A DNA stretch of 20,148 nucleotides from a virus. A program made the translations under genes and the position numbers. Numbering within the stretch: the first letter of the stretch is position 1; the number at the start of each line of letters is the position of its first letter. The notes under the pieces were generated by a model, which did not search any database, was not told the DNA's origin, and saw only the letters and a program-made list of their open reading frames with translations. The stretch spans positions 1 through 20,148 of IMG/VR virus record IMGVR_UViG_3300029319_000574. One strand, given 5' to 3'. Below are positions 5,101 through 20,148 of the stretch, piece by piece.

Positions 5101-5138
5101 ACGGCATTTATTCCAACAAACGACATGTACGAAGGTAA
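2124..5138 (+). CDS. Tail tubular protein B / nozzle (T7 gp12-like)
   Basis: The 1004-residue product is the tail nozzle protein; T7 gp12 is about 794 residues, so this is a large version. The N-terminus (RIPNFLGGVSQQPDKIKFPGQ, about residues 7-27) is the family hallmark: the protein begins by stating its own assembly surface, followed by a KKRPPAEFVG block. A second hallmark, FHRNRLGLIADEQVVMSQ plus the NYFDLF segment, occurs at about residues 536-562. The extra length lies mainly in Ser/Thr/Asn-rich sequence at about residues 180-300 and 730-830. Translation probably restarts from the preceding stop through TAATG; the only upstream purine run is AAGAAGAA. Codon use is strongly A/T-ending, unlike the capsid. 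The 3' end overlaps the gp13-like gene by 14 nt. Confidence 0.94.
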   Translation: MATVNQRIPNFLGGVSQQPDKIKFPGQLRVCDNAVPDVTFGLKKRPPAEFVGTLTGSTSTGHWYEILRDGDEKYLVQITVSNVGSSSVKPIRVWDIATGQEQSLTNAVGASVFGYLDGATKPYAVTTIQDYTLIANPNRLVAKSTATTGTAIENGDYAYARLDTIAYNTEYILYAGTAPSPNTFYRVTSVKVDKKNGNSLQGPTFDSTDTDQSKSGTLTWSFSGGEAIQNTSNRSNCLDVEGSLQVNGTSYVSSQNANYQNNNSSNRDDFLGFTQTYKTRYTATVTLTDGGIIRETSEATALAKHLDVAIEGIVYRISVEAVEPVVTYDSTTGFTYAYHKTPKNPDNGVLSMATILERLAYAVNSHVNNVTAEVIGSGLFLKGTAASSVNFLGGAVNENMSVIGQKAQDISRLPAMNKHGYVAQISNTADLDTDDYYVKFEANNGSSGTGSYEETVRPHNFAGTAAVDTMKAGFDPSTMPHALINNRNGTFTFAKLDEATATSLGNENYWKDRVVGDNISNPFPTIEGRAITEMFFHRNRLGLIADEQVVMSQPGNYFDLFIVSAIAASDDNPIDITVSDIKPAFINHTLPIQKGVMMFSDNGQFLLFTESDIFSPKTVRLKKISSYECDATIEPVDLGTSVLFTSNVSAYARAFEATIVDDDTPPKIIEQTRVVPEFLRKDITKSTNSAAIGITTYGTKGDNVVYHYKYYDAGNQREQSAWYSWTLTGTMQHMFYTAGSFFTVTLHDGTYKLCRHEYVTDATSDRVYVLGTGTVGSTLTTSRQFEAHLDNMTIATNVAGSAQTTTAPEKTVLTIPYTPANTTDLFMVGLSGNDSDGNSIAGTVRAADAVGTNSVTFNNINLHSAAKIAVGYKYTSTIELPTYYVNLGNNAYDTEGDLRISGINFEMGVGGPMEFHLTSPFEYVDASGNITKDIDDYIQVESGMFTNSSVFDKPPADLTRRVRVPVQRKNEKYTLQIKIPDPFSTALISASWDGIYSNKRHVRR

Positions 5139-5568
5139 GTATATACAGACCTGCACTCCTGAGTTAGCTCTAAGTGTAGGTCTAAACTTACGTTATGAAG
5201 ATAGACGTGAGGCAGAGGAGACTTCTGGTTTATGTGCAGAAGCTTCTATAATTGAATCTTTTTATAATTCAGCATATTCTGTATATTTTAAGGTTCCCAA
5301 CGGCAAGGCTGCTGGAGTGGCAGGAGTGACCCCGCAAAATTTAATATGGATGCTATGTACTGATGCTAGTACAGAATATCCACATACATTTGTGAAGGAA
5401 GCTAAACGCTGGGTAAACAGTTTACTCAATCCTTATTTATTTAATCAAGCAGATATGCGGAATGAATCACACATAAAACTACTAAAACTTTTAGGTTTCA
5501 CCTTTGTTAACTATCATGTCTATAACAATGTACCTCTTATAACATTTATAAAACCATGTGCACAGTAA
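5125..5568 (+). CDS. gp13-like internal/assembly protein
   Basis: This 147-residue protein sits where T7 encodes gp13 (about 138 residues), a small protein needed for assembly of the internal virion proteins. The C-terminal segment NESHIKLLKLLGFTF (about residues 112-126) matches the T7 gp13 signature NKSHIRFLKTIGAVF as I recall it. That 'SHI..L..LGF' pattern, together with the central V(T)PQNLIWMLCTD strand (about residues 68-79), is reminiscent of a GNAT-type acetyltransferase fold, but I see no clear acetyl-CoA-binding motif, so catalytic activity is doubtful. It starts inside the end of the nozzle gene (14-nt overlap) and its stop overlaps the next start in TAATG, so all three are likely co-translated. 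Confidence 0.85.
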   Translation: MYEGKYIQTCTPELALSVGLNLRYEDRREAEETSGLCAEASIIESFYNSAYSVYFKVPNGKAAGVAGVTPQNLIWMLCTDASTEYPHTFVKEAKRWVNSLLNPYLFNQADMRNESHIKLLKLLGFTFVNYHVYNNVPLITFIKPCAQ

Positions 5569-6293
5569 TGGCGTTGAGCATAGGTATGGGTGCTGCACAA
5601 GCCGTAACAGGAATTGCGGAGCAGAACAGAGCCCATCGTGCTCAGGTCGATGCCGTTAATCGTAGCAATGCGATGGCACGGCAAAAATATCTTAATGACA
5701 TAACTATCTCAGCTTTTAACGATCAACGTAAAGGTGAGGTATTTACAGCTCAATTACAAGCTGATGCTACAGCTAGATCTGCATACTATCAGCAAAAACA
5801 AATAAACCAATTAGAACACAATAGAGCATCTGAAGCTGCTCAAGCCGAACTAAGAGAAAAGGTAACTAAAACAATGTTTGATAGTCAAACCAACTTAGCA
5901 AAGGCAATTAAAGCTCAAGGAACAGTACTAGCAAGCGGACAGCAAGTTGGTCAATCTATGATGCTTACTCTTGATGATATTGAAAGAGAGTACGGTATGG
6001 CAAATGCACAACTTGATGCAACCATATTTGACGCAACAAGAGCTTATGGTATTAAGCAGTTTGGCCTAGATTTAGACAACTATGCTGCTGATACTTCAGC
6101 TTACAATAACATATCTACATCCGCTTACGTAGCTCCTACAGCTTCGTTTATGACACAAAAACCAATCGAACAAAAAGCTCCTCCAAAACCATCACCACTT
6201 GGCCCAATACTTGGCGGTATAGGTACTGTCTTTAAAACGGGAACAACTCTTGGTGGACAGGATTATTGGCAGGACAACTTCTTTAAAAAATAA
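5568..6293 (+). CDS. Internal virion protein (T7 gp14-like)
   Basis: The product is about 241 residues from the ATG at 5568; T7 gp14 is about 196. I prefer this start to the in-frame ATG at 5556 because it forms a TAATG overlap with the preceding stop, as in the gp11/gp12 pair, and gives the common Met-Ala beginning. Residues 1-15 are weakly hydrophobic (ALSIGMGAAQAVTG) and are followed by a long Ala/Gln-rich, probably helical region (about 20-150). A Pro-rich stretch (about 195-210) and a Gly-rich tail (LGGIGTVFKTGTTLGG) follow. In T7 the counterpart leaves the virion first and inserts in the outer membrane as the outer part of the ejection channel. The assignment rests on position, size and the helical, Ala-rich character. 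Confidence 0.85.
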   Translation: MALSIGMGAAQAVTGIAEQNRAHRAQVDAVNRSNAMARQKYLNDITISAFNDQRKGEVFTAQLQADATARSAYYQQKQINQLEHNRASEAAQAELREKVTKTMFDSQTNLAKAIKAQGTVLASGQQVGQSMMLTLDDIEREYGMANAQLDATIFDATRAYGIKQFGLDLDNYAADTSAYNNISTSAYVAPTASFMTQKPIEQKAPPKPSPLGPILGGIGTVFKTGTTLGGQDYWQDNFFKK

Positions 6294-6301
6294 CTAAGGT
6301 T

Positions 6302-9300
6302 ATGACATACTCAGGCAGTACACAAAACTCCTCGTATTCTAAACGCACATACAACAAGAAAGACGCAAACGATCTTGCTGCATTAGCTAAGGCTATGGAT
6401 AAACAGCGTAAGGAAACGGTAACAGAATTTAGACAAGCATCGACAGATCAGCTTGGTGAGTTAGATCGACAAGATAAAATACAATACAGTAACGATCAAT
6501 TTCAAATAAGACAACTAGCTAAGTTTAGTGACAATTTAAACAGTTTCTTAAAAGAGTCTGTTGAAAGTGTAGGTAAAGCATATATTGATAATAAACGCCA
6601 AGAAGGTATTGAATTTGAAAGAAAATACCGTGCGGGTGATCCAGACGCAGTAGCTAAAATTGACGCTGATAAAGAGCAATTAAAACAGATTGAGGAACAA
6701 GTAAACTCAATGTCTCAAGAAATCAATGAGTCTGTTGACGCATTTCTTAGTAGAAAAGCAGAGGAAGAGATTTCACTCAAAGATAAAATAAGAGCTCTTA
6801 ACGTAAAGAAACTTGGCCCAAACATTCGTTGGGGTTTTGTAAGAGCTCAGTTACAAGAATCCGCTCAAGGTTATAGTTCACATCTAATTGATACTTTACA
6901 AAACAGTGAAGAGCAATTTACAACTAAAGATAACACTACTTATACTATTGGTAAATACAGTGAGATACTAAACCCAGACCATAAGAAAGAGATTGAGGAT
7001 TATGTTGAAGATCAGTACATTGCTAACAACAACCCGTTTGGTGCTTCTGATGTAGTTAGAAATGCTTATCTTACTGCAAAGGTAGTTGAGACTACTGACA
7101 AGTATAGAGAAAAAGAGTATATAAAAGAAAGAGCACAACTAGGTGAACAACAACAAACTGGTAGAGTTGACACGTTAATTACATCTTCAATAGATTTCGA
7201 TGCTGATAGAGTCACAACTGTTACACTAGCAGACGGTACAACTATAGAAGAAAATCGTAGTATTATTGCTTTAGATGGTGCTATACAAAATCTACTTACC
7301 GAAGGCCCTAGCAGCGAAGCTATGGTCAACGATAATGTTAGCCCATACAAAGCTAATAAAACTAGAGTTATAAATGCTATAAAAGAGGCTTATTCATTTT
7401 TAGACTCTGACACTGCAGCAGAACTTACTGAACATTTATTAAAGAAAAAATTTAAGATGGCTGGTATGGAGGGTACACTAGAAACCCTAATGGCAGGTGA
7501 CTTAAATCTAAAAGAGATAATGTCAGAGCATGGTAGTAAGGTAGCCTTACAAAATGAAAGGTTACGTAAAACAATGTTATCTGATTTTAACACAGAAATA
7601 AATGGGTATTACAAGTCATATCGTGAAGGTAAATTAACTGAACAGGAAGTTAGAGATCAAGCTAAAATAATTAAATCAAGTGGTGCTTATGATTTGATAT
7701 TTGATGAAGCTGAGTTTCAGAAAAAACTAATAGCTTTAGAAGAGTGGAAGCCAGCTCATTTTAATTACACTGATTCTATGGGTAAAGCCGATGACATTAT
7801 GAACGATCAGGGATTTTTGTCTAGTGCAGATATGTTACAGATGCACCCAGAAGCTCTAAAAGAGATAATGGAAGATGCTAATGGTAAGAAAGAAAGATTT
7901 ATATATAAGGATAATCTTATCTGGGCTAAAATGGGTAAATCAAATTTTGATACTCTTTTAGATAAAACCTTAGAACCTATAAATGGTGCAATAGATGCAA
8001 TAGTTAAAGAAACAGCTATTGATCTAACTGATGACATAACCATGAACGCTATCAAAGATGCAACTAGAGCACATTTACTACGTAAAGCTAACTTGTATCA
8101 CTTAAATGGTAGTTCTGGGGTTAAAGCCTTATCACAGGCTGCTATTGAAGTTGGAACAGAGCTTCAAGCTGGTACAGGTATTTTTGCACGAGATGGTGAG
8201 AAATTTACTGATATTAGGATGCAACCTCCAACAATAGCAGGTGGACAAGATATAGAAACTCTAATACAAGAAGGTGCTGTCGTTACAGCTAAATTAGACA
8301 TATTACAAGGATCTGGTAAACAAGAAGATTTTTTAGCAACTAAAGTTCTTATACCTGCAGGTAGTAAATTACTAGAACCAGACGTAGGTGAAGATGGTGT
8401 TATACGTAAGTTACCTAACGCTTTGTTTGAAATAGCAGAGTATAGCGAAACAGGTTATACAGCTATAGATGTTTTAAATTTACAACGTAAGGTAAATAAG
8501 TTAGAACCTTATAAATTAAGTGAGTTTTCTCCCGAACTACAGGCGTTACATACTAAGGTTAAGAATGAATATCCACATCTAGCTAAAGTTTTTAACAGTA
8601 GTCCAGAAGGAACATCAAGAGCTATAGATGAACTAGGTGCTGTCGATCTAAATACATTAACAAACTCTGTTATTGTCAACATAGAATCTCCTATATTTGA
8701 AGGTGACTTAGATCAAGTGCTAACTAGATTTGGCTATGAAAAAGATAAGTATGACAACAGTGCGTTAATACAAGAAGAAGTAAGACGTAAACAAGTAAAC
8801 TATTTACTAAAAACAGCATTACAAACAACTAATGACAAGAACCAAGCTATACTTATGGTAGCTACTGGTATGAGATTTGGTGAAAGTTCTATGAATGATT
8901 ATGGTGAGGGTAGTATTTATGATAATATTAGTAACCAAAAATCTGATTATGCCTATTCTGTTTTAGATGCGTATTACTCAGGAGATACTTCTAAGTTAAT
9001 AGGTACTTATAGTAGTGATACACTTGTTACAGGTCAGTTTAGAGATCTTACAAAAACAGAGGCTAAGTATAACTTAGAACCTAACTATGTTATGGAAAAC
9101 ATTGTAGGTAATGTTAAGAATATAAATTTAAGAGATACAGCAAAGAATAAAGCTGTTCTAGAAATACTTAATAATAAACAGTTTATACCACCAGAAGATA
9201 TAGTAGTACCTAGTGCTGGTCTATATGGTAGAAGTGTTATACGTAACCCTCTATATGATAAGTATAAGCAAGCTCTAAAAATCTACACAGATATTGACAA

Positions 9301-9580
9301 TCTTACAACTAAAATAAGTAAGCAAGATACAAGTATACTTAACAGTAAAAAAGAATACTTTAACTTACAAAAATTATTACAGTTCCAAGAAAGTCATGAT
9401 TTAGGTGGTAAGTATGTACCGATTACTGATTCAAAGTTTTTTGTCTATAGAGATGAATGGATGGAGAAAAATGGTAGTAAATACCAAGGTGCAAACAAGA
9501 ACAAGGTTAAACAATTAAACAAACAAAGAATGGAGTATATACTCTTAAAATCTAAAGAATACTTAGGTTTGGGTGAATAA
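6302..9580 (+). CDS. Internal core/ejection protein (T7 gp15-like)
   Basis: The product is 1092 residues, considerably longer than T7 gp15 (about 747). It has the expected position, between the gp14-like and gp16-like genes. It is highly charged and probably mostly helical, with Glu/Lys/Gln-rich segments such as DADKEQLKQIEEQVNSMSQE (about residues 120-139), and no signal peptide or membrane span is evident. The family forms the middle part of the internal core and, after ejection, a periplasmic tube. No enzymatic motif was recognised. The start lies 8 nt after the previous stop, with only AAGG very close to the ATG as a possible ribosome-binding site. The family is identified mainly by context; the sequence itself is divergent. 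Confidence 0.85.
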   Translation: MTYSGSTQNSSYSKRTYNKKDANDLAALAKAMDKQRKETVTEFRQASTDQLGELDRQDKIQYSNDQFQIRQLAKFSDNLNSFLKESVESVGKAYIDNKRQEGIEFERKYRAGDPDAVAKIDADKEQLKQIEEQVNSMSQEINESVDAFLSRKAEEEISLKDKIRALNVKKLGPNIRWGFVRAQLQESAQGYSSHLIDTLQNSEEQFTTKDNTTYTIGKYSEILNPDHKKEIEDYVEDQYIANNNPFGASDVVRNAYLTAKVVETTDKYREKEYIKERAQLGEQQQTGRVDTLITSSIDFDADRVTTVTLADGTTIEENRSIIALDGAIQNLLTEGPSSEAMVNDNVSPYKANKTRVINAIKEAYSFLDSDTAAELTEHLLKKKFKMAGMEGTLETLMAGDLNLKEIMSEHGSKVALQNERLRKTMLSDFNTEINGYYKSYREGKLTEQEVRDQAKIIKSSGAYDLIFDEAEFQKKLIALEEWKPAHFNYTDSMGKADDIMNDQGFLSSADMLQMHPEALKEIMEDANGKKERFIYKDNLIWAKMGKSNFDTLLDKTLEPINGAIDAIVKETAIDLTDDITMNAIKDATRAHLLRKANLYHLNGSSGVKALSQAAIEVGTELQAGTGIFARDGEKFTDIRMQPPTIAGGQDIETLIQEGAVVTAKLDILQGSGKQEDFLATKVLIPAGSKLLEPDVGEDGVIRKLPNALFEIAEYSETGYTAIDVLNLQRKVNKLEPYKLSEFSPELQALHTKVKNEYPHLAKVFNSSPEGTSRAIDELGAVDLNTLTNSVIVNIESPIFEGDLDQVLTRFGYEKDKYDNSALIQEEVRRKQVNYLLKTALQTTNDKNQAILMVATGMRFGESSMNDYGEGSIYDNISNQKSDYAYSVLDAYYSGDTSKLIGTYSSDTLVTGQFRDLTKTEAKYNLEPNYVMENIVGNVKNINLRDTAKNKAVLEILNNKQFIPPEDIVVPSAGLYGRSVIRNPLYDKYKQALKIYTDIDNLTTKISKQDTSILNSKKEYFNLQKLLQFQESHDLGGKYVPITDSKFFVYRDEWMEKNGSKYQGANKNKVKQLNKQRMEYILLKSKEYLGLGE

Positions 9581-9582
9581 TT

Positions 9583-12500
9583 ATGAGCGACACATTAAGA
9601 CCCATAAACTCGTATGATTATCCTACCGATACCGAGTTTCAAGATTTACGAGAGGTAGGACAAGAACTTATTAAGGAAAAAGGACTTGAAGATAAAATAC
9701 TAGAGCAAGAAAAAGCAAAAGCAGAGGATCAAGGTTTTATAGCTGACAATCCTCTAGATGCTCTTAGTGACGTTGCTTCTATAGTTCCAGGAGCAGCTAT
9801 AGACGCTGCAGAGAGTATTGGACAGTTCTTAGACCTTAGTGGTGATACACTCAACACAGCAGCTGCTAACTTGTTTGGACATCATCAATTTGAGTCTGAC
9901 AATCCTTTTAGTGATAAGTATGAAAAAGGTAACTGGATAGATATACCAGATCAGTTTACACCTGAGACAAAATCAGGTCTTGGTAAACTAGCAAGAGGTT
10001 TAGGAGAATTTGGTATACTAGCAGTATTAACTGCAAAAACAGGTGGAGCCCTTGGAGGTGCTTTAGGTGGTGCTAAGGCTACTGCTGCTGGTACTAAAAT
10101 GGCTGGTCTTGTAAACAAGATGAAAGCTGGTTCTAGACCTATGCAGTTCTTACTTAGTCCTAAAGCAGCAAAATTTGGTAAGATAGCCAGCGAGGGTGCT
10201 GTAGCTGACTTTATTATGAATGATAGTGAAGAAGGTAATATAGCAAACCTTGTAGATCAGTATGCTCCTATAATACCATTTAGTAAAGCCTTAGCTGTTA
10301 ACGAAGAAGATAACCCATACTCAGCTCGTATTAAATCAGTTATAGCTGGTGCGGGTATGAATATTGTAGGTCATGCTTTGGTAGGTTTTTTAAAAGGTAA
10401 GTTTGCTGCTACTAAAAAAGCAAAAGAACTTATTGAAGAACAGAAACTACTAGAGGGTAAAGAACCTAAATTACTTACAGGTTCTACAGATGCAGTAGGC
10501 AAAGGTTTTGTTATTAAAGACTTTTATTCTGACGTTATCAACAGATCAAATAACGAAGGTACTCAAGTTATGTATGATTACATACGTAAACAAGGGTATG
10601 ACGATGCTGCTGAAGCTAGATTACAAGCTAATACTAACTTTGCTGATGGTAAAGGTTTTCGTAACGATGTAGACTATTTAGATCTTTACTTAAGAAAATA
10701 TCTTAACGAAGAAGATTTTGAAGAAGCACAGAGATTGTTTGCAGGTGAGGATTTAAACTCATCAGTAACTATCAAAGGTGATCCCGAAGAGGGTTTCCCA
10801 GATCAAGTAATATCTCCAGAACAACGTATAGTTGACACTCGTGGTAAAGGTACATACTATCATGGTGCTGCCTCTGAAATAGATAAGTTAGTAGGGCCAT
10901 ATGATTCTGAAGATTATTTTGGCAGAAACGGCCCAGGATTATTCGGGTTTGGTTTTTACACTACAGATGATCTAATTACTGCTAATAAATATAAGAAAAA
11001 AAATGTTACTAAAGCTGAGTTATCAGAACCTATAGTATACAAAACTAGAGAGCTAAAAGAAGTAAAATTTTATGACTTAGATGCTCCTATGTCAGATACT
11101 GTACTTAAAGAAATAGATGACATAATTGAAAGAGATAATTATGTTAGTGACTCTTTAGCTGACGCTCTAGCAGATGTAAGTCGAGGAGGTAGTCTAGCAG
11201 ACTTTTTACGAGAAGCAAAAGAATATGCAAGATATAATGATATATATTCTGAAGAATTTGCAGAAAATGTTTTTCTACCTATACAAAGAATACTTGAAAA
11301 AGAAGGTATTGGTGGTTACACACATAAAGGTGGTATATATAGAGCCAAAGGTAAAAGAACACACCAAGTTAGAATATACTGGGATCCTGCTAATCAGCTA
11401 GAACTAGGTAAAACTTCTACAGAAACTGCAACTTTACAGGACTATATAGACCTTGCAATGAGAAAAGGTCAGGCTGCAGGAGATCCTTGGATGCCAGAAA
11501 TGGGTATGAGTCGTAAGCAAGAAAGAGCTAACAGACTACGTAAACCAGATCCAGAGGTAAACCCTAATAAATTTAGTAACGAAGAAAGAGCTAGTCAGCG
11601 TGTATCAACAGATACTGACAACCCATACACACAGTATGTAGAAGAAGCTACTAAGATGAACGACATAGGTCAAAGACCTGTGGGTTCAACTAACATGAGT
11701 ACTAATGCTAGAACCAGACAGATGGCTGGTGATGACCAAGGTCTACGTAAACTAGCTGAAGAAGTCATGGACAGCATTTCAGAAAATGACTTTAAGCAAA
11801 TTGATAATGCACAGCCCTTTGCAAAAAGGATTGATATGTACTATCAAATGGCAAAAGAAATAAATGAGATTATTGCTGTTGGTGGTGATGACAGTATAAA
11901 TGCACTAAGACGTTATCTTAACGCAGATCTTGGTACAAAAAAAGTTGATGTATCTGATCTTACAGGTAGAAAAAACTTTATATTTTGGGATTTTGACGGA
12001 GAAAAAATTATAACTATTACACCTCAAATGGCTAACGCTTTAAAGATTGCAGTAATGCACAATCTTAAAAAAGCATCAGACATAGGTACAGGTGTTACTA
12101 TGTTACCAAAAGGTGCTAACGCAACTAGACAAGCCTTAGATATACTTGACAATCTACAACTTGCTATGGTTGAGATGAAGAAAATATCTTTCATGACTGG
12201 TAATGCCCTACAGGTACAAAAAGGTATTGGATTGTTTGAACAAGGAAGTCGTAAAAAATTAGCGAAAAAACTTAAACAAATTGAGTTAGAAGAAAAGACT
12301 TTTACAGAAAGACTTAAAGAACTAATCCAAAAAGGTGATAAAAAACAAGCTCGTCAACTATCAGAAATATATGCTATCACAGATGGTAGGGTAACTTCTC
12401 TGTCTATGATACAAAATTATCTTAAGAAAAGGCTAGGTTTTGGTGGTGAGATTAACGGTCAACGCATCCCATCTCAAGTATTTAGAGAGTTAGCGTCTGT

Positions 12501-14409
12501 ATATTACAATTCTATACTTAGTTCACCTAAAACACCCATGAGAGCTGTTGTAGGTACAAACCTTATTGCTGTACTCAGACCATTTCAAATGTGGGCTGGA
12601 GCTACACTAAGACAAGATAGAGCACAGGCTGCTGTAGCAGCTGCAGCTATAGATGGTATAGGTAAAGCATACGCAGATACTTTTAGAATATTTAAGTATA
12701 ACTGGGAGCAAGGTGTACATAACAAACGTCTGTCATATCAAGGTAGATTTGATTTACCAAGAGACTTAGCTAAGTTTCAACAGTTAGGTAAGTATGCAGA
12801 AGAGTTTGGTACACCAGCTGAAAAGATGATGTATAGAGCTATAAATCAAATTGTAAAAATAAATACTAACCCTTGGTTCCGTTACTCACAGAACATTATG
12901 GGAGCAGGTGACGCTGCAGCTAGAACAGCTATAGGACGTTTTACAGCTCGTATAAGAGCAGCTCAAGAAGGCGTAGAAAAAGGTATACCTCTAGAAAATC
13001 TTACTGACTATGCAAAAGCACAAGAGCAAAGATTTTTAGATCAAATATTTACACAAAGCGATGGTAACATGATGGTTGTTACAGATCAGGCAGCTTTAAT
13101 GGCTGGTCGAGAAGCTACCATGACTAAGGACATTGAAGGCTGGATGAAGGTATTTGAGTCAATAAGTGGTAATCCTTTAGGTATGTTTTTCTTCCCGTTT
13201 GCTAGAACTGGTTATAATGCTTTACGTTTGACTACCCAACATACACCCTTAGAAATTTTTAGTAAAAGATATAAGGATATTATGGCAGGTACAAACCTAG
13301 AAAAATATGGTTTAACTGCAGCAGATTTACCAGCAGAAAAAGCACTTATGGAAGGTAGAATTGCTATGGGTTCTGCTATACTTGGTATGGCGATTGCAGG
13401 AGCTGCAGCTGGTAATATTTATGGTGATGCACCACGAGACAAAGAAATGAGAGACTTGTGGGCGATGGAAGGTATAAGACCTTACACAATGCGAGTTGGT
13501 AACACTCTAGTATCCTATAGAGACTTTGAGCCTTTCAATACTATTATTGCAACAGGAGCTAATTTATTTAATTATCAACATGCTTTAGATGAAGATTTGT
13601 TTTCTGAGTTTGCAGAGACTGCTATATTTATGATGTCTGCAGCTCTAGTAGATAAATCTATGCTTGCAGGTGTAGAGGACTTAGCTACTGTTTTAGATCC
13701 TCAAGGTTTAGAAAGAAAAGGCGGTAGATTATTTGCTCAAACAGCAAGATCTATTTTACCTTGGTCTGGTCTTTTAGGTAGTATTGGTGACTTGCTAGAC
13801 GCTAACCAAAAAGAAGCAGTAGGTATGTTTGAAATTATGGTTAGACGTGATGCTATCTTTAAATCTACACTACCTCCTAAGTATGATATATTATCAAAAG
13901 ATAGATCTGGCACACCATTTCAAATTCCTGGAAGTCAACCACTAGCCCGTGCATTTAACTTTTTATCACCAATAGCAATTACTAATACCTCTGGAGATCC
14001 TGTAAAAACAACACTATATGATATAGGATATAATTTACCAGATGTACTTAGAACATACAAAGGTATACAGTTGACTTCAGCTGAAAGATCTTTAATGACT
14101 AAGTATTTGTCTATGGGTAATTTACGGTCAGAGTTAGAAAAAGTATTTGCAAGTAAAGCGTTTCAAAATGGATATAAAGAATTTAAAGATTTAAAGGGAC
14201 GTAGACGTATGGGTATTAGAGTAGAAGATCAAGAGTTTTACCAAATGGTACAAAAGGTCTTTAGAAAAGCAAAGAAAGACGCATATTATAAAATGATAGC
14301 AGAAAATCCTGAGCTTGATGACAAGCTAAAAGAAGCAGCACGTTTGAAGAGACTTGGTGGTTCTGGTAATTATGAACAAATAAATAAAATTTTAAATATA
14401 CCAAAATAA
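9583..14409 (+). CDS. Giant internal virion/ejection protein (T7 gp16-like) with ADP-ribosyltransferase-like segment
   Basis: The 1608-residue product (T7 gp16 is about 1318) is the largest core protein, expected to cross the envelope with the DNA and form the inner-membrane part of the ejection channel. A Gly/Ala-rich hydrophobic segment lies at about residues 141-172, and a second, likely membrane-inserting segment (GSAILGMAIAGAAAG) at about 1263-1277. The stretch NPWFRYSQNIMGAGDAAART (about 1096-1115) and the block containing GIRPYTMRVGNTLVSYRDFE resemble the C-terminal halves of other large podovirus ejection proteins. Residues about 424-608 look like an ADP-ribosyltransferase: YYHG (425-428), GFGFYTT (455-461) followed by A467 and Y470, then GGYTHKGG (577-584) and QVRIYWDP (595-602). 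I see no soluble-lytic-transglycosylase motif at the N-terminus, unlike T7. The start lies 3 nt after the previous stop. Confidence 0.88.
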   Translation: MSDTLRPINSYDYPTDTEFQDLREVGQELIKEKGLEDKILEQEKAKAEDQGFIADNPLDALSDVASIVPGAAIDAAESIGQFLDLSGDTLNTAAANLFGHHQFESDNPFSDKYEKGNWIDIPDQFTPETKSGLGKLARGLGEFGILAVLTAKTGGALGGALGGAKATAAGTKMAGLVNKMKAGSRPMQFLLSPKAAKFGKIASEGAVADFIMNDSEEGNIANLVDQYAPIIPFSKALAVNEEDNPYSARIKSVIAGAGMNIVGHALVGFLKGKFAATKKAKELIEEQKLLEGKEPKLLTGSTDAVGKGFVIKDFYSDVINRSNNEGTQVMYDYIRKQGYDDAAEARLQANTNFADGKGFRNDVDYLDLYLRKYLNEEDFEEAQRLFAGEDLNSSVTIKGDPEEGFPDQVISPEQRIVDTRGKGTYYHGAASEIDKLVGPYDSEDYFGRNGPGLFGFGFYTTDDLITANKYKKKNVTKAELSEPIVYKTRELKEVKFYDLDAPMSDTVLKEIDDIIERDNYVSDSLADALADVSRGGSLADFLREAKEYARYNDIYSEEFAENVFLPIQRILEKEGIGGYTHKGGIYRAKGKRTHQVRIYWDPANQLELGKTSTETATLQDYIDLAMRKGQAAGDPWMPEMGMSRKQERANRLRKPDPEVNPNKFSNEERASQRVSTDTDNPYTQYVEEATKMNDIGQRPVGSTNMSTNARTRQMAGDDQGLRKLAEEVMDSISENDFKQIDNAQPFAKRIDMYYQMAKEINEIIAVGGDDSINALRRYLNADLGTKKVDVSDLTGRKNFIFWDFDGEKIITITPQMANALKIAVMHNLKKASDIGTGVTMLPKGANATRQALDILDNLQLAMVEMKKISFMTGNALQVQKGIGLFEQGSRKKLAKKLKQIELEEKTFTERLKELIQKGDKKQARQLSEIYAITDGRVTSLSMIQNYLKKRLGFGGEINGQRIPSQVFRELASVYYNSILSSPKTPMRAVVGTNLIAVLRPFQMWAGATLRQDRAQAAVAAAAIDGIGKAYADTFRIFKYNWEQGVHNKRLSYQGRFDLPRDLAKFQQLGKYAEEFGTPAEKMMYRAINQIVKINTNPWFRYSQNIMGAGDAAARTAIGRFTARIRAAQEGVEKGIPLENLTDYAKAQEQRFLDQIFTQSDGNMMVVTDQAALMAGREATMTKDIEGWMKVFESISGNPLGMFFFPFARTGYNALRLTTQHTPLEIFSKRYKDIMAGTNLEKYGLTAADLPAEKALMEGRIAMGSAILGMAIAGAAAGNIYGDAPRDKEMRDLWAMEGIRPYTMRVGNTLVSYRDFEPFNTIIATGANLFNYQHALDEDLFSEFAETAIFMMSAALVDKSMLAGVEDLATVLDPQGLERKGGRLFAQTARSILPWSGLLGSIGDLLDANQKEAVGMFEIMVRRDAIFKSTLPPKYDILSKDRSGTPFQIPGSQPLARAFNFLSPIAITNTSGDPVKTTLYDIGYNLPDVLRTYKGIQLTSAERSLMTKYLSMGNLRSELEKVFASKAFQNGYKEFKDLKGRRRMGIRVEDQEFYQMVQKVFRKAKKDAYYKMIAENPELDDKLKEAARLKRLGGSGNYEQINKILNIPK

Positions 14410-14420
14410 TAACTAAATAA

Positions 14421-17400
14421 ATGGCAGTCACAACTAAAATTCTTTTTCCTGCCACAAGCAACAGTAGCACCACCGATTTTAGCTTGTCGGGACTACAACT
14501 TCATAATCAAGATGATTTAGATGTCTATGTTACTAAAACAACAGCTGGTATAGCTGCTAATAATAACAAACGTATTTTACATAATAGACAAAGTACTAAC
14601 AGTAATGTAGACGCTAATCATAAACAAGTAAATAACACAGACGGACTGTACTTCCCAGCCATAACACATACAGGGGGTACAGAAACTTTAGAAAACTATC
14701 AAATAGTAAACAATAATGGTACAGTACGGTTTAACAATGCTTTACCTAGTGGTGCTATTGTTTTTGTTGAACGTAGAACCAGAGATGAATCTGGTACATA
14801 TACTGCGTTTGCTAGTGGTAGTACTATAAGAGCTAGAGATCTTAACGATTCAGCTGAACAATCAAACTTTACAGCACAAGAAGCTAGAAATAAATCACTA
14901 ACTATAGAAGGTGTTTTATTTGACGGAGATCAACCAAGCACAAACTTTGTTACAACTAGCCATATTGTAGATGATACTATAACCACAGCTAAAATAGTAG
15001 ATGCAAACGTAACTACTGCTAAGATAGCAAATGATGCTGTTACAGTAGATAAACTTGCAAATAACTCAGTGGTTGCTGGTAATATACAAAACGGACAAGT
15101 AGGATCAGTCGCTCTAGCAACTAACGCAGTAACTACTGATAAGATTCTAAATGATTCTGTAACTACAGCTAAAATACCTAACAATGCAATTTTAAATGCA
15201 AAAATAGCTGACGATCAAATTGACTCTAGACACTATGTAGACGGTAGTATAGATACAGCTCACTTAGGTAATAATGCAGTAACTACTAATAAAATTACAG
15301 ATAACTCTGTAACTACAGCTAAAATACCTAATGACGCAGTAACTACAGCTAAAATAGCAGACAGTAATGTTACAACAGCTAAACTAGCAAACGATGCAGT
15401 TACAGTAGATAAACTTGCAAATAACTCAGTCGTTGCTGGTAATATACAGAATGGAGCTGTAGGGTCACTTGCTTTAGCTACTAACGCAGTAACCACAAAT
15501 AAGATAACAAACAGTAGTGTAACCGTAGATAAAATTGCTGACGGTAATATTACTACAACTAAATTAGCTAATAATGCTGTTACTACAGCTAAAATTAATG
15601 ATGCACAAATTACTACAGCTAAAATTGCCGATAGTAATGTAACTACTGCAAAGATAGCTAATGATGCTGTTACAGTAGATAAACTAGCCAACAATGCAGT
15701 TGTTGCAGCTAACATTCAAAATGGAGAGGTAGGTTCACTTGCCTTATCTACTAACGCAGTTACTACAGATAAAATTACAGATGCAAACGTAACTAGAGTT
15801 AAAATTGCAGCAGATGCAGTTGACAGCACTAAATTAGCTGATAATGCAGTTGACTCAGAACACTATGTAGATGGATCTATAGATGAAGTTCACTTAAATG
15901 CTAACATTGTAAGTAGTAGCAAAATTATAAACGGTGCTGTTATAGAGACTAAAATAGGCACTAATGCAGTAACTACAGCTAAGATAGCAAATGATGCTGT
16001 AACAGCAGATAAAATTGCAGATGCAGTTATTGTTACAAATGCTGAACAAGCAAGTCATAGTGTAAATGATACAACATTCTTTACAACAGCAGCAGCTGAA
16101 GCTAGATACTTTAACGCATCAACTGGAGAGACTATTAAAGATGGTCAAACATTTCCAGATAACGATACAACAATCGCTACAACCGCAGCCATCAACGACA
16201 GGATTATTGACTTAGTTGATGATGTTGGTGGGTTTGTACCAATAGCAAATGAAACATCTTTTCCGACTTCTAATCCTGATATTAATAATGGTTCTGGTAC
16301 TCTGGTATCTATTAAATCTATATCAAGCACACGTACACCAAGCAGTGGCACAGTCACTATTGCAAACGGTGCGGGAACTGGTAACACTGTATCTATTACG
16401 GGGTGTGGATCAACCGTTCTTACCGCAGGTTTTGGTATAATTGTAGAAACTACATCTACCTTACATACATATGCGTTTCATAGATTAGTACCAAAAGCGA
16501 CAGAGGTTACAACTGTTGCAAGCAATATAACTAACATTGTTAATGCTGGATCTAACACTGCAAATATAAATGCTGTAGCTGGTAATGCTACTAACATAAA
16601 TACTGTAGCTGGTAATAACTCAAACATTACTGCTGTTGCTAATAACTCAAGTAATATTAATAGTGCAGTATCTAATGCATCAAACATTAACAGTGCTGTA
16701 TCTAACGCTAGTAATATAAATACTGTTGCAGGGTCTATATCCAATGTAAATACAGCAGCTACAAATATTTCAAGTATTAATACTGCTGCAAGTAATATTA
16801 CAAACGTAAATAACTTTACTGATAGATACCAAATAGCATCTTCTAACCCAACAACAGATGGTGGTGGTAATGCACTTGCTGCTGGAGACTTGTACTTTAA
16901 TACATCTGCTAACGAACTAAAAGTTTATACAGGTTCTGCCTGGCAGGGTGGTGTTACAGCTACAGGTAACTTTGCTTCGGTTACTGGTAATACATTTACT
17001 GGTAGTAACATATATAACGACAACGTAAAAGCTATATTTGGTACAGGGTCAGATTTTCAAATATATCATAATGGTTCTCATACATTTTTAGAAAATAGTA
17101 CAGGTCATGTTTGTTTTCGTGCTGGCGGTGGTCAGATACAATTACAAGCTGTAAATGGTGAAAACGGAGTTCTTATAAGACCTGATGGAGCCGTAGAAAT
17201 TAAGTACGACAACAGTAAAAAGTTTGAGACAGTTACAGGTGGAGTTACTATTACAGGTACTTTAACTGCTGATCGGGTAGACGTTAGTGATAATGAAAAA
17301 ATTAGAGTTGGAGCATCTGGAGACATATTGTTGTTACATGATGCAAATGGATCAGAGCATGGTGTTGCTGGTAGTTCTTATATTAAATGTCAAGGTGTTC

Positions 17401-20148
17401 ACGATAATATTTTAAATATATTTACTGCTTCTGCTACAGGAAAAATACATCTTAAAAATAATAACTTAAATAAAACTATGTTATCGGCTAACGGTAACGG
17501 ATCAGTAGACTTATATCACAATAACACTAAAAGGTTTGAGACAACTGGAAATGGAGTAAATGTTATAGGAAATTTAATTGCCGATTGTAATGTCTCAATA
17601 GATCCTGACTCCAATACAAACCATTTTATAACAGGTGCTATTCAAGATGGTAGTGGTTGGTCAGCTCAAGGAATCGCCTTTGGTCAAGGAACAGGCAAGA
17701 TGGCTGCTTTTGGAGTCTCTAATTCACTATACATGGCTCATGGTGACGGTAGTAATGCCAATAGCTTGACAACTTTTATGGAAGTCAATAATGCTGGAAG
17801 AGTAAAATTACATTATAATGGTAGTGGCAAATTTGAGACTACAAGTACTGGAGCAACTATTACTGGTACTTTAATTGCTGATGGTTTAACTCTTTACGAT
17901 AATGAAAAATTACTAATTGGAACTAATACCGATATAGAGGTTTTTCATGATGGTACAAATAGTATTTTTCAAAGTGATACTGGAGATTTACAGATAAATT
18001 CTGGAAACTCTGCTGGTAATGTAGAAATAAATTTAAACAATAATGTTGCTGGTAACACTAGAGAAACATCAGCAAAGTTTATAAAAAATGGAGCAGTAGA
18101 ACTCTATTACGACAACAGTAAAAAGTTTGAGACAACAACTAATGGTGTACTTACAACTGGAAATATTCAACTTGATACTGATAGCGGAAAACTAACTGTT
18201 GGAGATTCTGGAGATTTTGAACTTTATCATAATGGTACATCAACTTATTTAGACAATCTAACTGGACATCTAATAATAAGAAATAATGTAGGTGGTGATC
18301 AAAATAATAATATTTATATAAAGGTTAAACAAGATGAAGATGGAATTGTTATAAATGATGACGCTGACGTAGAGTTATATTACGACAACAGTAAGAAGTT
18401 TCAAACTACTGCTAATGGCGGATTATTTACCAGTAGTAGAGTTCAATTTCATAATACTACTTCTTCTGGTAGTTATGCTCAATTCACTAACTCAGGTACA
18501 GGTCATGCAAGTAATTCGGGGCTTTGGGTTGGTGCAAATAGTTCAAATCAAGGAGTTGTACAGAACAAAGAAAACTCACATATTCTATTTTATACTAATG
18601 ACACTAAAACCTTTGAGCTTAGAGCTAATGGTGATGCAGCTCTTACAGGTGATAAAGGTTTATATCTTGGTGCAAATGATGATCTTTTAGTTGGTCATGA
18701 TGGTAGTCTTACACGAATAACAGATACTTTTGGTCACATGAAGATCTCAAGTAATACTATTGAGATTACTAACCAAGCATTAGGTGAAAATTATATAAAA
18801 GCCGTAAATAATGGACAAGTAGAACTCTACTATGACAATAGTATCAAGCTTAAGACTACAAGTGTTGGTGTACAAATTAATGGAGACTTAAATTTTTCTG
18901 ATTCTGTTGCAAATGACATACATCTTCGTGGTGGAAAAATTTATGGTGATGATGGTGCTACAAATGCGTTTACACTTCAAAATACTTCTGGAAATGCAAA
19001 CCATTCAAAAATAGTTATTGGTGACAGTTTTGGAAGTGATAATGGTGGTATTACATTTTATGGTGCTGGTAGTTCTAGTACTGACGTAAAGTTAAGAATT
19101 AGAGGAACTACTGATACAGTAGAAATTTCCGATAACCACAAATTTGTTTGCGGAGATGGTTCGGATTTACAAATTTATCACGATGGATCAAACTCTCATA
19201 TTGCTGAAGCTGGAACTGGTGTATTAAAAATATCAGGTAGTGCTGGGGTATATATCAACAAACATGATAACTCAGAAACTATGGCAGCATTTTTACATGA
19301 TGCTGGAGTAGAACTGTATCACAACAACAATAAAAAGTTTGAGACAACAAGTGGTGGTGCAACTGTTACAGGTAATTTAACTGTTTCAAATGTGCTACTT
19401 GATTCTTCTACAAGCGTTATTAGATGGCCAGAAAATGCTGGTAGTAATACTTCTAGAACGTGGGATATAATTGGTGAACAAGGTGGATATGGATTCCTTG
19501 AGGTTAAATATGCTAGTGCTTATAATGGTTCTGCCAACGAAAAAAGTGTTAGATTTAATGCAAATGCTGGCGTAATTCTCTACTACGACAACGCTCAAAA
19601 GTTTGAGACAAGATCGGGTGGGTGTCATGTAACTGGACACTTAGAGCTTGACGATAACGGTAAAGTCATGCTTGGTGCTAGTAATGATATGCAGATTTAC
19701 CATGATGGTGCAAATTCTAGGATTTCTGATAATGGTACTGGTAACTTAGTATTAGATAGTAATAACGTAATTATTCAAAGTAATGATCAGACTGAGACAC
19801 AAGCAATCTTTGCTTCAAATGCAGATGTAAAACTGTATTATGATAACTCTCAAAAATTTACTACAGCATCTAACGGAGCTATAGTTTATAATAAACTAGG
19901 TATAGGAGTTTTAGTTGGAAATAGTCTTGGTAGTACTAGAACTTATGCTATAGCTATAGGAGACAATGACACTGGTATAGCACAAAATGGTGATGGTATA
20001 CTAGAGTTTTGGTCTAATAACCAAGTTAAACAAACAATAGCTCAAGGCGGTAATGGTCATAGAGTTATGTTTAACCACACAGATACTGGTACTTATAATG
20101 CTCATGTTTCTGCAAGACAAAATTCTAACGGGCCTTATCCGTTTGGAG
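14421..20148 (+). CDS. Giant tail fibre protein (T7 gp17-like N-terminus), 3' truncated
   Basis: The frame is open from ATG 14421 to the last base, giving more than 1909 residues; T7 gp17 is 553. The N-terminus (about residues 1-165) matches the T7 tail-fibre attachment domain, with ERRTRD (about 117-122), GSTIRARDLNDSAEQ and AQEARNK (about 151-157). Then come about 30 short repeats of the type NAVTTAKIAD (about 178-538). A single-copy domain follows (about 550-700) with ARYFNASTGETIKDGQ and AAINDRIIDLVDDVGGFVPI, then ten 10-residue repeats (702-801), and then about ten longer units ending in LYYDNSKKFETT (about 869 to the edge). The product should be an elongated homotrimer that binds the host surface. 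The C-terminal tip or chaperone lies outside the window. The start lacks a Shine-Dalgarno sequence and is preceded by the AT-only run TAATAACTAAATAA. Confidence 0.92.
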   Translation, partial: MAVTTKILFPATSNSSTTDFSLSGLQLHNQDDLDVYVTKTTAGIAANNNKRILHNRQSTNSNVDANHKQVNNTDGLYFPAITHTGGTETLENYQIVNNNGTVRFNNALPSGAIVFVERRTRDESGTYTAFASGSTIRARDLNDSAEQSNFTAQEARNKSLTIEGVLFDGDQPSTNFVTTSHIVDDTITTAKIVDANVTTAKIANDAVTVDKLANNSVVAGNIQNGQVGSVALATNAVTTDKILNDSVTTAKIPNNAILNAKIADDQIDSRHYVDGSIDTAHLGNNAVTTNKITDNSVTTAKIPNDAVTTAKIADSNVTTAKLANDAVTVDKLANNSVVAGNIQNGAVGSLALATNAVTTNKITNSSVTVDKIADGNITTTKLANNAVTTAKINDAQITTAKIADSNVTTAKIANDAVTVDKLANNAVVAANIQNGEVGSLALSTNAVTTDKITDANVTRVKIAADAVDSTKLADNAVDSEHYVDGSIDEVHLNANIVSSSKIINGAVIETKIGTNAVTTAKIANDAVTADKIADAVIVTNAEQASHSVNDTTFFTTAAAEARYFNASTGETIKDGQTFPDNDTTIATTAAINDRIIDLVDDVGGFVPIANETSFPTSNPDINNGSGTLVSIKSISSTRTPSSGTVTIANGAGTGNTVSITGCGSTVLTAGFGIIVETTSTLHTYAFHRLVPKATEVTTVASNITNIVNAGSNTANINAVAGNATNINTVAGNNSNITAVANNSSNINSAVSNASNINSAVSNASNINTVAGSISNVNTAATNISSINTAASNITNVNNFTDRYQIASSNPTTDGGGNALAAGDLYFNTSANELKVYTGSAWQGGVTATGNFASVTGNTFTGSNIYNDNVKAIFGTGSDFQIYHNGSHTFLENSTGHVCFRAGGGQIQLQAVNGENGVLIRPDGAVEIKYDNSKKFETVTGGVTITGTLTADRVDVSDNEKIRVGASGDILLLHDANGSEHGVAGSSYIKCQGVHDNILNIFTASATGKIHLKNNNLNKTMLSANGNGSVDLYHNNTKRFETTGNGVNVIGNLIADCNVSIDPDSNTNHFITGAIQDGSGWSAQGIAFGQGTGKMAAFGVSNSLYMAHGDGSNANSLTTFMEVNNAGRVKLHYNGSGKFETTSTGATITGTLIADGLTLYDNEKLLIGTNTDIEVFHDGTNSIFQSDTGDLQINSGNSAGNVEINLNNNVAGNTRETSAKFIKNGAVELYYDNSKKFETTTNGVLTTGNIQLDTDSGKLTVGDSGDFELYHNGTSTYLDNLTGHLIIRNNVGGDQNNNIYIKVKQDEDGIVINDDADVELYYDNSKKFQTTANGGLFTSSRVQFHNTTSSGSYAQFTNSGTGHASNSGLWVGANSSNQGVVQNKENSHILFYTNDTKTFELRANGDAALTGDKGLYLGANDDLLVGHDGSLTRITDTFGHMKISSNTIEITNQALGENYIKAVNNGQVELYYDNSIKLKTTSVGVQINGDLNFSDSVANDIHLRGGKIYGDDGATNAFTLQNTSGNANHSKIVIGDSFGSDNGGITFYGAGSSSTDVKLRIRGTTDTVEISDNHKFVCGDGSDLQIYHDGSNSHIAEAGTGVLKISGSAGVYINKHDNSETMAAFLHDAGVELYHNNNKKFETTSGGATVTGNLTVSNVLLDSSTSVIRWPENAGSNTSRTWDIIGEQGGYGFLEVKYASAYNGSANEKSVRFNANAGVILYYDNAQKFETRSGGCHVTGHLELDDNGKVMLGASNDMQIYHDGANSRISDNGTGNLVLDSNNVIIQSNDQTETQAIFASNADVKLYYDNSQKFTTASNGAIVYNKLGIGVLVGNSLGSTRTYAIAIGDNDTGIAQNGDGILEFWSNNQVKQTIAQGGNGHRVMFNHTDTGTYNAHVSARQNSNGPYPFG
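15027..15146 (+). repeat. 40-residue fibre cassette, copy 1 of 3
   Basis: Residues 203-242 begin ANDAVTVDKLANNSVVAGNI and end with ATNAVTTDKI. The same cassette recurs at 15387-15506 and 15657-15776 with few changes. The first two copies are 360 bp apart and the last two 270 bp apart. Confidence 0.85.
15387..15506 (+). repeat. 40-residue fibre cassette, copy 2 of 3
   Basis: It differs from copy 1 by about three residues: GQV becomes GAV, SVAL becomes SLAL, and the end reads NAVTTNKI. Synonymous differences are scattered through the DNA, so the copies are not a very recent exact duplication. Confidence 0.85.
15657..15776 (+). repeat. 40-residue fibre cassette, copy 3 of 3
   Basis: This copy reads NNAVVAANIQNGEVGSLALS in its middle and ends NAVTTDKI like copy 1. 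It is slightly more diverged than copies 1 and 2 are from each other. Confidence 0.85.
16524..16823 (+). repeat. Ten in-register 10-residue repeats in the fibre
   Basis: Residues 702-801 divide without gaps into ten decads of the pattern N-x-[TS]-N-[IV]-N-x-[AV]-[AV]-[GSN], for example NATNINTVAG, NSSNINSAVS and NASNINTVAG. At the DNA level this is a 30-bp period over 300 bp. Hydrophobic residues fall at decad positions 2, 5 and 8, a 3-3-4 spacing. The last unit is degenerate and leads into NNFTDRYQ. This is probably a rod or linker between the shaft domain and the C-terminal repeats. Confidence 0.85.
17025..20148 (+). repeat. Long C-terminal fibre repeats (YHDG ... LYYDNSKKFETT type)
   Basis: About ten imperfect units carry a shared closing motif, in fibre residue order: KYDNSKKFETV (928), LYHNNTKRFETT (1031), LHYNGSGKFETT (1130), LYYDNSKKFETT (1228), LYYDNSKKFQTT (1319), FYTNDTKTFELR (1390), LYYDNSIKLKTT (1469), LYHNNNKKFETT (1632), LYYDNAQKFETR (1720) and LYYDNSQKFTTA (1805). 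Most are followed by a short T-G-x-L strand segment and a [DE]-[LF]-x-[IL]-Y-H-[DN]-G opening motif. Spacing is 71-103 residues, with one gap of 163 where a motif has degenerated. The units are probably beta-rich and trimeric. They continue towards the window edge. Confidence 0.85.

Follow-up and report, generated by a model that had tools for sequence, protein, structure and literature searches.

The gp16-like ejection protein of a marine cyanophage-like virus, classified here from its sequence, contains an inserted module that is related to ADP-ribosyltransferases (ARTs). Our reading, to which we assign a probability of roughly 60%, is that residues ~418-605 of this protein form an H-Y group ART-superfamily module, an optional and exchangeable cassette that would deliver ADP-ribose transfer to a host macromolecule early in infection. 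The module shows homology to known ART families, a predicted ART fold and an invariant His and Tyr. It is inserted into gp16 with a patchy occurrence among relatives, and a similar domain is found in the pre-ejectosome of cyanophage A4.

The window, i.e. the whole stretch of 20,148 nucleotides that was analysed, is part of a 22,119-base virus record (IMGVR_UViG_3300029319_000574). A block of late genes in T7 order encodes the major capsid protein, tail tubular proteins and counterparts of gp13, gp14, gp15 and gp16, and it also includes a long tail-fibre-like ORF. The capsid protein shares 71-73% identity with those of marine Synechococcus and Prochlorococcus podoviruses and of uncultured Mediterranean relatives, and a picocyanobacterial host is therefore likely. 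The tail-fibre-like ORF (window 14421-20147) encodes more than 1909 aa, runs off the window and contains repeated units, e.g. VTTAKIANDAVTVDKLANN and VELYYDNSKKFETT. The features of the core-protein block and of the module are:

5125..5568, + strand: gp13-like internal virion protein (phrog_308, E 7.7e-33)
5556..6293, + strand: gp14-like internal virion protein (Pfam T7_gp14, E 5.6e-9)
6302..9580, + strand: gp15-position core protein, 1092 aa (assigned by position and size)
9583..14409, + strand: T7-gp16-type internal virion (ejection) protein, 1608 aa (phrog_6651; P-SSP10-like gene order)
10834..11397, + strand: inserted ART-like module, residues ~418-605 (missing in P-SSP10 gp16; 64-member family; AF2 model; structural matches)
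10861..10863, + strand: H427, predicted catalytic His in strand 1 (invariant, 64/64)
10957..10959, + strand: Y459, predicted NAD-binding Tyr in strand 2 (invariant, 64/64)
11095..11304, + strand: helical stretch that separates both groups of strands in the ART core, residues ~505-574 (four helices, model residues 90-158)
11362..11367, + strand: H594-Q595, start of the strand expected to hold the third catalytic residue (H594 64/64, Q595 52/64; model residue 179 = 594)

The window gp16 matches PHROG 6651 'internal virion protein' over residues 41-1600 (E 4.2e-242) and is encoded directly after gp13-14-15, as in Prochlorococcus phage P-SSP10, which places it among the T7-type gp16 internal virion proteins. 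The N-terminal lytic transglycosylase of this type was not found in the window gp16 in a Pfam search at E<=1. This agrees with the original prediction that no such domain is visible in the protein. Also in the gp15-like protein no transglycosylase family was detected, and this protein gave no match at all in the Pfam search. Searches of the window gp16 against Pfam and PHROG revealed no LPD domain and no second enzymatic family, so that it is not a polyvalent protein, which combines several effector or LPD domains in one polypeptide. Comparison with the homologous P-SSP10 gp16 (1363 aa) showed that both flanks align, whereas window residues ~400-605 have no real counterpart. This region is thus an inserted module that the P-SSP10 protein lacks. 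The translation of positions 9583-14406 reproduces exactly the motifs on which an ART-like domain had been proposed: YYHG with H427, GPGLFGFGFYTT with Y459, A467, Y470 and HQVRIYWDP with Q595. The proposed location of the domain also stands, with conserved limits of ~418-605 that are slightly wider at the start.

Direct searches with the window domain in Pfam, PDB sequences and phage genomes (tblastn) gave weak or no matches, so a profile built from relatives was needed. The window domain alone identified six IMG/VR contigs with the module and the first profile 38 loci; a second profile yielded 171 IMG/VR candidates, of which 80 were kept. In an alignment of 64 members, H427, G428, G455, G457, Y459, T461, Y470, G575, G578, H581, G583, G584, H594, V596 and I598 are invariant. 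The conservation of the His and the Tyr on which the original prediction depended thus extends to all 64 relatives. In more divergent gp16 forms, identified at a later stage, the HG and GxGFY motifs and H594 are retained but H581 is not. A profile made from the 52 relatives outside the close gp16 group scored the window protein with 179.7 bits, compared to at best 4.2 bits for 200 shuffled copies. The H-Y motif in the window gp16 is not there by chance.

The module also occurs in carriers of other architecture. One ORF of ~2076 aa (L027:5793-12020) joins a portal-like part (phrog_21), the ART-like module and a gp16-like part (phrog_6651), and two portal-containing ORFs (L018:4533-8681 and L036:4002-8708) have the module at their C-terminal end. 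In L033:6870-8696 and L139 (contig 3300020460_000058), gp16 consists of two ORFs, one of 609 aa that ends just past the module and one of 976 aa. Since the gene is intact in the near relative L034/L140, the split is either genuine or due to a mistake in assembly. One module lies on a contig (L119, BJHE01000017.1) binned as Cyanobium in a metagenome, possibly phage DNA in a cyanobacterial bin.

The family profile links the module to two known ART families, in both cases through the N-terminal (His/Tyr) half only. It aligns with ten ART-PolyVal domains of phages at E 9.8e-8 (prob 94) and with five proteins of DUF3990 at E 1.3e-6 (prob 91). The ART relationship of the original prediction is hence seen in profile comparison. 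Single relatives are recognized by Pfam as DUF3990 (to E 2.7e-7) or ART-PolyVal (to E 5.2e-4), all below the curated cut-offs. For ART-PolyVal (PF18760, cut-off 31.2 bits) the window was not reported at E<=1 and the best relative reached 21.2 bits; for DUF3990 (PF13151, cut-off 32.2 bits) the window scored 14.1-14.3 bits and the best relative, part of L021, 30.8 bits. A sequence match to PARP16 (E 0.72) was set aside as weak, and the stronger-looking matches beside it were designed helical proteins hitting the helical region.

Two relatives (L021 and L043) contain the module and a bona fide ART-PolyVal domain in one protein, together with LPD22 or with LPD1/LPD5/LPD38/ddrB-ParB, and are thereby polyvalent proteins. 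Such proteins are predicted to be injected with the phage DNA (PMC5512222). The module shares with ART-PolyVal (PF18760; Iyer et al. 2017, PMC5512222) the HG and GxGFY motifs, the predicted co-injection and the presence of module homologues in the same proteins. It differs from the polyvalent ARTs, which are of the H-Y-D type, in that the Asp of their YDG aligns to a Gly, in the long helical region that parts the two halves, and in its carrier, a T7-type gp16 without LPD domains. HG and GxGFY are also shared with DUF3990, in which a Gln near the C-terminal strand is invariant in the five aligned members. Unlike the window protein, however, DUF3990 proteins are small and stand-alone and are encoded on Bacteroidota plasmids beside DUF3791.

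To model the module, AF2 was given the 64-row family alignment; an earlier run with six sequences was poor (pLDDT 57) and was replaced. The resulting model (pLDDT 87.4, pTM 0.85) has strands at the HG and Tyr motifs, two more in the middle, then a run of four helices and three strands at the end. H427 lies in the strand at model residues 10-14 and Y459 in that at 43-46. The module is thus predicted to have the split beta-sheet ART fold, with the His in strand 1 and the Tyr in strand 2 as in the H-Y-[EDQ] clade. In a Foldseek search, chain B of the cyanophage A4 pre-ejectosome (9k3a) ranked first (E 7e-7), followed by a RES toxin of Pseudomonas putida (E 5e-3) and, weakly, by PARP5A and ParT (E 0.46-0.74). 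BFVD gave 33 matches at E<=0.001, among them many phage proteins with ART-PolyVal and LPD domains (E 2e-9 to 1e-3). With VIA-align, 9k3a_B reached Z 13.1 over 174 residues. Diphtheria toxin (7.6), tankyrase (6.8), ParT (6.4), RES and PARP1 gave Z values of 6-7.6; for all PDB matches other than 9k3a, Z is below 8 and near background, and only 9k3a_B is above typical background. The model and its matches bear out the ART-like fold that had been anticipated from the motifs.

The chain 9k3a_B is identical to gp27 of Anabaena phage A-4L. Like the window gp16, gp27 is a core/ejection protein with the same predicted fold, a similar helical region and the motifs YHGT and WGSGTYFS (GxGTYFS), and most of the module can be aligned to it (local E 0.0009, single comparison). 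By this modelled correspondence, there is already a solved virion structure in which a cyanophage core protein bears an ART-like domain. Unlike the window protein, gp27 lacks the HQVRIYW motif, belongs to a phage of the family Saffermanviridae and is annotated only as 'tail protein'.

To assess presence and absence of the module, gp16 relatives were collected by their C-terminal part, which was also used for a tree. Intact gp16 relatives with the module have 1577-1884 aa and those without it 1324-1394 aa, and in the tree the module state changes at least two times, by gain or loss. The longest forms (L153-L157 and L171, 1866-1884 aa) carry the module and ~270 extra residues; no Pfam family was detected in the L171 stretch that was searched. 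At the DNA level, the gp16 genes of the window and of L009 are 87-100% identical (mostly >=95%) over nearly all of the region outside the module. Identity drops to 70-82% at residues 361-420 and 481-600 and is 92% at residues 421-480, the His and Tyr block. The helical region belongs to the stretch of the module that diverges most. In three close pairs (window-L009, L025-L035 and L016-L013), dS of the module is about twofold or more that of the flanks, and dN/dS is 0.13-0.51 across all pairs. Taken together, the local drops in identity, the raised dS and the dN/dS values fit a module that is swapped through recombination and kept under purifying selection; the linker and the helical region would change faster.

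The third catalytic residue is the least regular part of the presumed active site. Polyvalent ARTs are described as H-Y-D (PMC5512222), and the larger ART clade as H-Y-[EDQ]. The position of Q595 is Q in 52, K in 6, T in 2, N in 2, D in 1 and H in 1 of the 64 aligned relatives, and the adjoining H594 is invariant. Q595 was therefore rejected as a fixed catalytic residue. The H-Y-[E/x] layout of the original prediction holds for the His and the Tyr within an ART-like fold but not for Q595, about which caution had been voiced from the start. In a multiple alignment of uncertain register, the Asp of the polyvalent 'YDG' falls on G577 and a later Glu on Q595; profile alignment gave no firm register for the C-terminal strands.

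This variability could mean that the ART fold is kept and catalysis is lost, the module having a structural or ligand-binding role in the core or ejectosome. In the solved A4 pre-ejectosome the similar domain is seen in an ordered state, which speaks for such a role. On the other hand, H427, Y459, T461, Y470 and H594 are invariant down to 27% identity to the window and across quite different carriers, divergence is concentrated outside the His/Tyr block, and sister phages have gp16 relatives that do without the module. We consider this explanation somewhat unlikely. Still more tentative, and doubtful, is the suggestion that the module represents a separate active-site class of functional ARTs. 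In such an enzyme the invariant H594 would take the place of the usual acidic or Gln residue at the third position, and the cassette, a fast-changing effector passed between phages, would reach the cell by way of the DNA-ejection machinery itself. Enzymatic activity as such is plausible.

An active module might also consume NAD+ instead of modifying a macromolecule. As an enzyme of the NADase or NAD phosphorylase type it would drain or adjust host NAD+ or defeat NAD-based immunity. RES toxins, which are NAD-degrading, are the first named enzymes after 9k3a in the Foldseek ranking, and the third Glu, which favours transfer to protein, is missing. However, the protein modifiers diphtheria toxin and tankyrases match equally well or better by Z, and the closest sequence relatives are polyvalent ARTs, which makes such a role improbable. 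That the motif arose by chance in an unrelated domain that is not an ART is hardly credible: only the weak Pfam scores of the window alone speak for it, and the invariant residues, the profile matches, the AF2 fold, the structural matches and the shuffle control all speak against it.

For the H-Y group ART module we infer enzymatic activity and host modification along the following lines. The gp16-like protein would sit in the core of the virion and leave it before the DNA, as its family membership and the A4 example, with gp27 in the solved pre-ejectosome, suggest. The module would then be exposed to the cytoplasm, where NAD+ should be available, and could, much as T4 Alt does, attach ADP-ribose to a macromolecule of the host at an early stage of infection. 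T4 Alt had been named as the precedent for such an injected ART. As an analogy in how it may work, namely a virion-packaged ART that is injected with the DNA, this comparison is sound, but Alt is not the closest precedent, since the similar domain in the cyanophage A4 pre-ejectosome is closer. Alt is a separate protein with an R-S-E active site (PMC5512222), whereas the window module conserves H and Y, lacks the R-S-E pattern and would belong to a different clade.

The usual picture of T7-type core proteins is that of a conduit by which the DNA crosses the envelope. ARTs that are packaged in the virion and injected are already known from T4 Alt and from polyvalent proteins (PMC5512222, PMC9503650). 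In the titles and abstracts of the literature searched, with most subscription journals outside this scope, no description of an ART inserted in a T7-type gp16 was found. A 2022 survey reported ARTs in only 3% of siphoviruses and podoviruses (PMC9503650). Modules of the gp16 type may have been missed in earlier counts, possibly because their scores lie below the Pfam cut-offs. As the module is optional among gp16s, nature provides pairs with and without it that can be compared in experiments, and the solved A4 pre-ejectosome shows, in structural terms, the place of such a domain prior to ejection. If the module is active, some marine cyanopodovirus-like phages would also have in gp16 a vehicle for an enzyme that arrives ahead of all phage gene expression, and the virus may thus bring an enzyme that modifies host molecules into the cell in the first moments of infection.
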